Both the position numbers and the translations under genes were made by a program. The notes below the pieces were generated by a model, which worked only from the letters and a program-made list of their open reading frames with translations, did not search any database and had not been told where the DNA came from. Of a DNA stretch of 64,000 nucleotides, positions 31,741-32,654 are shown one piece after another (within the stretch, counting starts at the first letter, position 1; the number at the start of each line of letters is the position of its first letter). Source of the DNA: Anaeromyxobacter dehalogenans 2CP-1 (GTDB lineage: Bacteria > Myxococcota > Myxococcia > Myxococcales > Anaeromyxobacteraceae); the NCBI RefSeq assembly GCF_000022145.1, contig NC_011891.1, positions 3,888,501 through 3,952,500 on the forward strand, written 5' to 3'.

Positions 31741-31744
31741 CGAG

Positions 31745-31817
31745 TGAGCGCGGAAGGAATCGAACCTTCAACCTATGGATTAAGAGTCCATTGCTCTGCC
31801 AGTTGAGCTACGCGCCC
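31745..31817 (-). tRNA. tRNA-Lys (anticodon CUU)
   Basis: 73 nt. Acceptor GGGCGCG (31811-31817) pairs with CGCGCTC (31746-31752, one G-U). Anticodon stem ATGGA/TCCAT encloses loop CTCTTAA, giving CUU. Discriminator is A. It is the last gene of the minus-strand tRNA operon. Confidence 0.95.
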
Positions 31818-31912
31818 GATGCATCTCGGGATGGCCGAGGGGCGCCGTATTAGCAGCGTCCCGGTGGGCTGTCAACGACCTCCGGCGCGATCATCGCGCC
31901 GCCTTTTCAGCA

Positions 31913-31936
31913 CGCCCGGAGGGATTCGAACCCCCG
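31913..31936 (-). repeat. Partial tRNA-Arg copy (T-arm and 3' acceptor only)
   Basis: These 24 nt are identical to the 3' end of the tRNA-Arg genes (T-arm GGGGG-TTCGAAT-CCCTC plus CGGGCG). No D-arm or anticodon arm follows, so it is a remnant and not a functional tRNA. Confidence 0.8.
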
Positions 31937-32065
31937 GGCATTCGGACCCGGGGGCTTCGCACGAACGTGGCCGACGACGGGTCGTACCGCGACGCTGCGC
32001 CCCCGGACCCCCGCCGCGCTCCGGCGCGGCCTCCTCCGGCCGCGCCTGCGCGCCGAACGATGCAG

Positions 32066-32139
32066 CGCGCCCGGAGGGATTCGAACCCCCGACCCGCGGC
32101 TTAGAAGGCCGCTGCTCTATCCAACTGAGCTACGGGCGC
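32066..32139 (-). tRNA. tRNA-Arg (anticodon UCU)
   Basis: 74 nt. Acceptor GCGCCCG (32133-32139) pairs with CGGGCGC (32067-32073), discriminator G. Anticodon stem GCGGC/GCCGC encloses loop CTTCTAA, giving UCU. CCA is not encoded. Confidence 0.95.
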
Positions 32140-32160
32140 GTACGTCGAAGGTTACCTCGC

Positions 32161-32229
32161 CCGCGATCGGGAGGATCTACGGGGGCCAGTGACGGCCCCC
32201 GGGCCCCCGGCCAACTGAGCTACGGGCGC
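32161..32229 (-). repeat. 69-bp module: GC hairpin fused to a partial tRNA-Arg 5' end, copy 1
   Basis: It contains a GGGGGCC...GGCCCCC hairpin (about 32181-32200), then CCCGGGCCCCCGG, then 19 nt identical to the 5' end of tRNA-Arg (32211-32229). The downstream 25 nt also repeat the flank of the intact gene at 32140-32164. The second copy lies at 32470-32538 (about 64 of 69 positions identical). Confidence 0.8.
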
Positions 32230-32281
32230 GTACGTCGAAGGTTACTCTGCCCGCGGGTCGTGGGCGTCGGGCGAAAAAGTG

Positions 32282-32355
32282 GGTGAGTAAAGGGGCTCGA
32301 ACCCTTAACCCCCGGATCCACAGTCCAGTGCTCTACCGATTGAGCTATACTCACC
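32282..32355 (-). tRNA. tRNA-His (anticodon GUG)
   Basis: 74 nt including the characteristic G-1 (32355) paired with C73 (32282). Acceptor is GTGAGTA/TACTCAC. Anticodon stem CTGGA/TCCGG (one U-G) encloses loop CTGTGGA, giving GUG. Confidence 0.95.
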
Positions 32356-32372
32356 GTAAATCATCATCTCAG

Positions 32373-32446
32373 CGCGCCCGGAGGGAATCGAACCCCCGAC
32401 CTGCGGCTTCGAAGGCCGACGCTCTATCCAACTGAGCTACGGGCGC
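32373..32446 (-). tRNA. tRNA-Arg (anticodon UCG)
   Basis: 74 nt. Acceptor GCGCCCG (32440-32446) pairs with CGGGCGC (32374-32380). Anticodon loop is CTTCGAA. The anticodon stem is TCGGC/GCCGC, with an unpaired U27-C43 at its top, unlike the UCU gene, which has G27-C43 there. Confidence 0.93.
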
Positions 32447-32469
32447 GAAACTTCGAAACGCGACCTTGC

Positions 32470-32538
32470 CCGCGACCCGGAGGATCTACGGGGGCCAGTA
32501 TTGGCCCCCGGGCCCCCGGCCAACTGAGCTACGGGCGC
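32470..32538 (-). repeat. 69-bp module: GC hairpin fused to a partial tRNA-Arg 5' end, copy 2
   Basis: Same architecture and length as 32161-32229. The hairpin loop differs (ATT versus GAC). The last 19 nt (32520-32538) equal the tRNA-Arg 5' end. It lies between tRNA-Arg(UCG) and tRNA-Pro. Confidence 0.8.
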
Positions 32539-32580
32539 ATGAGGGAGCCGCACCCGGCCATCACCATTGCTGTCAAAGAG

Positions 32581-32654
32581 TCGGGGCGGCCGGATTCGGA
32601 CCGGCGACCTCCTGCGCCCAAGGCAGGCGCGCTACCAGGCTGCGCTACGCCCCG
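32581..32654 (-). tRNA. tRNA-Pro (anticodon UGG)
   Basis: 74 nt. Acceptor CGGGGCG (32648-32654) pairs with CGCCCCG (32582-32588), discriminator A. Anticodon stem CCTGC/GCAGG encloses loop CTTGGGC, giving UGG. First gene of the operon. The Arg-His-Pro association recalls the enterobacterial argX-hisR-leuT-proM cluster. Confidence 0.95.

Follow-up and report, generated by a model that had tools for sequence, protein, structure and literature searches.

The window analysed here is a stretch of 64,000 nucleotides (positions 3,888,501-3,952,500) of the 5,029,329-bp, single-contig genome of Anaeromyxobacter dehalogenans 2CP-1 (G000 below), and positions within the locus are given in window coordinates. 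On its minus strand it carries a cluster of five tRNA genes in the order Pro-Arg(TCG)-His-Arg(TCT)-Lys, all of them intact by the agreement of ARAGORN and Rfam, together with three fragments of tRNA-Arg, as the original prediction had held. Two A units of 90-92 bp each, consisting of nucleotides 1-19 of tRNA-Arg, a GC-rich hairpin and a linker, precede both tRNA-Arg genes, and a single B unit with two hairpins and 29 bp of a tRNA 3' end lies behind Arg(TCT). The features are listed below in the sense of the transcript, with scores from two models: R2, for a palindromic element that we call E and describe further on, with its stem-loops SL1 and SL2, and R3, for the tRNA copy plus hairpin of the A modules.

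32580..32654, minus strand: tRNA-Pro(TGG), first gene of the cluster (ARAGORN, Rfam)
32520..32538, minus strand: A module 2, exact copy of tRNA-Arg nucleotides 1-19 (R3, 79.5 bits)
32487..32519, minus strand: A module 2, hairpin corresponding to the second stem-loop of E, with GTA at its end
32447..32486, minus strand: A module 2, linker of 40 bp, homologous by alignment to the linkers of relatives
32372..32446, minus strand: intact tRNA-Arg(TCG) (ARAGORN, Rfam)
32281..32354, minus strand: tRNA-His(GTG) (ARAGORN, Rfam)
32230..32255, minus strand: second copy (26 bp) of the linker end, before module 1
32211..32229, minus strand: A module 1, exact copy of tRNA-Arg nucleotides 1-19 (R3, 82.1 bits)
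32178..32210, minus strand: A module 1, hairpin corresponding to the second stem-loop of E, with GTA at its end
32140..32177, minus strand: A module 1, linker of 38 bp (by alignment)
32065..32139, minus strand: intact tRNA-Arg(TCT) (ARAGORN, Rfam)
31939..32054, minus strand: B module, full E (SL1 + SL2), with boundaries placed by eye (R2, 48.3 bits, E 1.2e-6, over 32000-32053; fold)
31908..31936, minus strand: B module, 29-bp copy of the 3' end of tRNA-Arg(TCT)
31744..31817, minus strand: tRNA-Lys(CTT) (ARAGORN, Rfam)

The two 5' pieces, which had been predicted to end at 32229 and 32538, are each exactly the first 19 nucleotides of tRNA-Arg. The 3' piece proved to be real and, at 29 bp, slightly longer than the 31913-31936 first assigned to it, and the duplicated hairpin module was recovered at a length of 76 bp (32154-32229 and 32463-32538, 92% identical) instead of 69 bp. 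The copied flank aligns with the end of the module linker over 27 columns, an alignment that none of 1000 shuffles equalled, and can be read either as the trace of a lost unit or as part of a target duplication. When the genome-wide and comparative search proposed in the original prediction was run, the 76-bp module matched its two places in the cluster and no others in its own genome, and modules scoring at least 62 bits with R3 were found in six of the 24 genomes of the family. An assembly artefact, named beforehand as grounds for dismissing the whole arrangement, is unlikely, because the identical type of module recurs in separately sequenced relatives.

Consensus scans for promoters and terminators between 31600 and 32900 found none. 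Judged from their position in the cluster, the A modules are plausibly transcribed with it; the B module, situated between the last Arg gene and tRNA-Lys, may belong to a separate transcript. A TTGACA followed after 17 nt by TAATAC lies upstream of tRNA-Lys (31847-31875, minus strand) and was not reported by the consensus scan; by reading, relatives have a similar sequence at that position.

The A and B units have in common the sequence GGGGGYCCGGGGGC, of which the 5,029,329-bp genome has three copies, one in each A hairpin and one in a hairpin of B. Since it is otherwise absent from the genome, this sharing goes far beyond chance. A pattern extended from the B sequence, GGAGCGNGNNGGGGGTCCGGGGG with up to two mismatches, matches 16 of the 24 genomes of the Anaeromyxobacteraceae, and from the reading of these loci the element E consists of GCGAGCGCAGG, stem-loop 1, CCGGAGCGAGC and stem-loop 2, whose loop is variable, followed by a short tail. 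Its copies are about 75-120 bp long (by reading), which is too short to encode a mover. The first stem of E is supported by covariation: among 35 aligned copies, selected from 41 distinct and well-bounded ones with the badly decayed copies excluded, 98.7% of its cells are paired, six of the nine pairs show double changes, and the covariation score was reached by none of 500 shuffles. This two-stem structure replaced an initial one in which only 42.5% was paired.

At E <=0.01, R2 matches 15 of the 24 family genomes and gives at least 66 copies for G007, 27 for G008, 20 for G004 and four for G000, the counts being lower bounds because 150 candidates per genome were scored. Copies are numerous in G014 and G019 too, and nine family genomes yielded none. 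Of 145 genomes searched in the order, it matches 15 at E <=1e-4 and with stricter filters, all of which belong to the family; the 121 from outside the Anaeromyxobacteraceae gave no match. E is thus a dispersed family of bipartite palindromes, with the multiple scattered copies, the conserved stem-loop and the short length by which small dispersed palindromes are recognized, and the hairpins of the cluster belong to it. We did not find an earlier description of E or of the modules in the titles and opening lines of abstracts returned for Anaeromyxobacter palindromes and repeats, for REP in "Myxococc", or for partial tRNA and tRNA-gene repeats.

The relationship is less direct for the A modules than for B. 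The A hairpin corresponds to the second stem-loop of E alone, the first stem being absent, and R2 aligns to the A modules over that part only, with a score (17.8 bits, E 0.36) that is not significant by itself. The derivation of the A modules from the second hairpin of E is something we infer because GGGGGYCCGGGGGC is shared and because the tails match (CCCCCGGTACGAAG in the module of G014, and similar tails in the dispersed copies, by reading). The stem of the A hairpin is paired in every module. An acceptor-like outer pairing suggested by folds of single modules was discarded, since in relatives GCAGGC or GCCGGC stands in place of its 3' strand (by reading).

Pieces of genes flank E at several places that are unrelated to each other. 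The flanks were compared for 55 copies of E (the fetched loci gave 72 hits, 56 of them passed a stem test, and both flanks were present for 55), with the 99th percentile of cross-pair comparisons, a score of 33, as the cut-off. Copies of a gene end that bracket E stand clearly over this cut-off for five of the 55: at the 3' end of glmS in G008 (L142, 400-760; scores 86 and 70; copies of 45-48 bp in the order gene-E-copy-E-copy), at the 5' end of tsaD in G006 and in G000 (scores 64 and 59; 37 bp), and at tRNA-Arg in G000 (score 53; 29 bp). Similar arrangements at tsaD in G001 (29) and at a hisH-like start in G008 (26) fall below it, the names glmS and tsaD coming from NCBIfam and hisH from reading the sequence. 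Four further loci at or over the cut-off were not counted, one with two neighbouring tRNA-Ser genes (L129), one with an adjoining E copy (L159) and two with doubtful GC-rich alignments (L103, L120). The remaining E copies among the 55 have no long flanking repeat. E or its hairpin is also found between gene-end copies at tRNA-Arg(CCT). At tsaD, a partial 5' copy lies across E from the intact gene in three genomes (L128, L099, L104), with, by reading, a short segment of the gene in inverted orientation between E and intact tsaD.

Of the four copies of E found in G000, two are no more than 300 bp from a tRNA, a zone that makes up 0.47% of the genome (P = 1.3e-4, for a small number of copies and a test picked after the fact). 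One copy in G000, at 4195515, is close to two tRNAs, and in other genomes copies of E adjoin or separate tRNA-Ser genes (L115, L129, L135, L144).

E is found within protein genes as well. In pyrE, mfd and mutS the reading frame stays open through E, which in every case has the same strand and frame and encodes a peptide like RAQGQPDEAAPERAGGPGG..PP. The hosts were identified by NCBIfam as mfd in G011 and as mutS and pyrE in G014, and by sequence as pyrE orthologues in G005, G010 and G019; the in-frame loci are L126, L138, L109 and L165 (pyrE), L107 (mfd), L112 (mutS), L122/L100 and L166.

These surroundings bear on the suggestion, made in the original prediction, that a tRNA-derived repeat is itself spreading through the genome. 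Each unit does contain a tRNA fragment, but the unit exists in two copies genome-wide, both in the cluster; elsewhere the tRNA portion is in every case that of the local gene (in G019, tRNA-Arg(CCT)), and at protein genes E adjoins pieces of those genes instead. What is dispersed is the hairpin element, and we regard a spreading tRNA repeat as the most improbable of the explanations weighed here.

The reading that we consider probable is that E is a selfish palindromic element that settles at gene ends, where it becomes associated with gene-end copies, and that tandem gain and loss of units follow later. As to when the copies are made, we infer that they arise at insertion. The small number of flanked copies, together with an E at the end of a gene in G000 that we take to be ubiX-like, absent from G001 (an empty site) and lacking a flanking duplication, means that the gene-end copies may instead be a product of later tandem duplication. 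Gene-end copies are either an inconstant mark of insertion or one that decays fast outside conserved sequence. Simple slippage might by itself have duplicated the ends of tRNA genes at GC-rich hairpins, with no special part for E, and identical tandem units (two of 93 bp in G003) and the X-E-X-E-X arrays of G008, at glmS and at tRNA-Arg, are what such a process would leave; but every gene end that is bracketed has the hairpin of E, whose motif occurs nowhere else in the G000 genome, so that we find slippage alone an unlikely account.

The comparison with relatives shows how the number of modules changes. R3 identifies 12 A modules in the six genomes (two in G000, four in G003, two in G004, one in G014, one in G016 and two in G019), and all of them stand before tRNA-Arg genes. 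Of seven weaker matches, five proved to be intact tRNA-Arg genes and two to be unrelated sequence; in a pattern scan of 84,980 genomes, six of the ten matches were chance occurrences with no tRNA nearby. The two tandem units of G019 stand before tRNA-Arg(CCT) and carry its first 19 nucleotides, one unit with a single mismatch and the other with two (by reading). In G014 (L051), the two tRNA-Arg anticodons have exchanged places compared with the genus of the window, the order being Pro-Arg(TCT)-His-Arg(TCG)-Lys.

Within the genus, A modules are found at the cluster in three of nine genomes and are lacking in the other six, the contig of one of these (G007) beginning at Arg(TCG), so that the side upstream of that gene lies outside the comparison. 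From none to two units stand before a tRNA-Arg gene among the relatives. In a tree built from 900 bp upstream of tRNA-Pro, the pairs are G000 and G006 (support 0.87), G003 and G002 (0.99), and G004 and G008 (0.99), and in each pair only the first-named genome has the module. The linkers of G000, G003 and G004 are homologous in most pairwise comparisons, and in some also to that of G014. Together, the tree pairs and the homology of the linkers suggest an old presence of the module and its repeated loss, aided by the 19-bp direct repeats. One scar of such a loss is preserved in the module-free genome G006, where the final 19 bp of the linker survive unchanged (0/1000 shuffles); a similar candidate in G008 was dropped as weak (P = 0.043, uncorrected). 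With the varying unit number in close genomes and the two TCG units of G003, identical over 93 bp (by reading), the scar supports the repeated recombination that the original prediction had considered, in this case around a mobile repeat.

The same comparison has to be weighed against a role for the modules as functional RNA, in which the 5' copy would compete for the 3' acceptor strand and so tune the maturation of tRNA-Arg, or a small structured RNA would be released. The rtT repeats of the E. coli tyrT operon have a unit of 178 bp that includes 19 bp of the 3' end of tRNA-Tyr. They offer a precedent in that RNA is released from the transcript of that tRNA operon (PMC4986893). The A units differ from rtT in carrying the 5' end of the tRNA and a dispersed hairpin element, and are known here from sequence alone. 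By forced-pair folding, which leaves aside co-transcriptional folding and modification, the competing acceptor pairing reaches -84.1 kcal/mol versus -78.8 for the native one in TCT, and -84.3 versus -83.6 in TCG, so that the 5' copies are possible acceptor-stem decoys. Selection could also explain why the 19-nt copies are 95-100% conserved while the linkers have diverged to 61-79%, and the pairing of the hairpin stem in every module also speaks for such a role. Yet any exact copy would compete in this manner, and gene conversion accounts for the conservation. The six genomes of the genus without modules (apart from the TCG side of G007), and the differences between sister genomes, argue that the modules are dispensable; in G016, moreover, the tRNA copy has decayed though the hairpin stayed. 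We consequently think that a function of this kind has little in its favour, somewhat less than plain slippage, and that the modules probably have none. We would give no more credence to a variant in which a miniature element targets the D-loop boundary of tRNA-Arg (after G19), rebuilds the gene by duplicating nucleotides 1-19 and inserts there repeatedly, the retained 5' copies acting as acceptor-stem decoys that modulate maturation.

The ends of tRNA genes and of glmS are known target types of integrating elements, and direct repeats bracket the units, as would be expected of the att-like scars that the original prediction had considered. We nevertheless hold such an origin to be very unlikely: the inserted part is a 33-bp hairpin with a linker, related to a small repeat found across the family, one set of copies sits at the 5' end of the tRNA, none of the ten nearby ORFs scanned, which include those for ClpX, ClpP and trigger factor, has an integrase domain, and the junction pattern has no match in viral contigs. 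A search of viral contigs with the stretch left of the cluster in a chance frame, a poor query, gave no match. Transposases of the RAYT type were considered as movers of E. Y1-transposase-like matches exist in 20 of the 24 family genomes, but E is absent from the 18 regions inspected around such genes in ten genomes, where the best site has at least four mismatches.

If E does spread as a selfish palindrome, the history of the cluster was probably as follows. E would be a family-specific and non-autonomous palindrome, of which the modules are remnants. A full E would have inserted behind tRNA-Arg(TCT) to give the B module, and its second hairpin, the only stem-loop remaining, after nucleotide 19 of tRNA-Arg genes to give the A modules. 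The direct copies of the gene end would bracket the hairpin, and therefore one intact gene would always be left. The short direct repeats would then permit the gain or loss of whole units through recombination or slippage, and the 19-nt copies would stay identical because the tRNA-Arg genes convert one another.

E has resemblances to several known groups of repeats, with which it was compared by description. The Rickettsia palindromic elements, as portrayed in PMC2229807, are small dispersed palindromes found in frame in conserved protein genes and also in the genes for tmRNA and M1 RNA. E, compared with them by description, is likewise found in frame within protein genes (pyrE, mfd and mutS), but is bipartite and GC-rich, is limited to the Anaeromyxobacteraceae among the genomes searched, and is found bracketed by gene-end copies. 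The YPAL/RU-2 elements of Yersinia (also PMC2229807) have internal inverted repeats, are not A+T-rich and make variable target duplications of 3 to 26 bp. E is similar in its inverted repeats, its base composition and the variable length of its duplications; by description it differs in that its gene-end copies reach 45-48 bp and lie at the ends of tRNA and essential genes. REP elements with GTAG or CGTC tags are, according to PMC3733652, short palindromes of many copies, some of them in DNA-repair genes. E resembles these REP elements in both respects, and differs from the RAYT type in that its consensus GCGAGCGCAGG-SL1-CCGGAGCGAGC-SL2 has no GTAG or CGTC tag at its start (by reading), as well as in its absence near the Y1-transposase-like genes inspected.

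E adds a palindromic repeat family, with free-living myxobacteria as hosts, to the few that are known to enter both protein-coding and RNA genes. The presence and absence of modules in close relatives make their gain and loss directly testable. If it is true that the 5' tRNA copies affect the folding of the tRNA, tRNA maturation could be studied at this locus as a natural experiment. The gene-end copies that bracket E suggest how selfish repeats might sit at essential genes, such as those for tRNA-Arg, tsaD and glmS, without killing their host.
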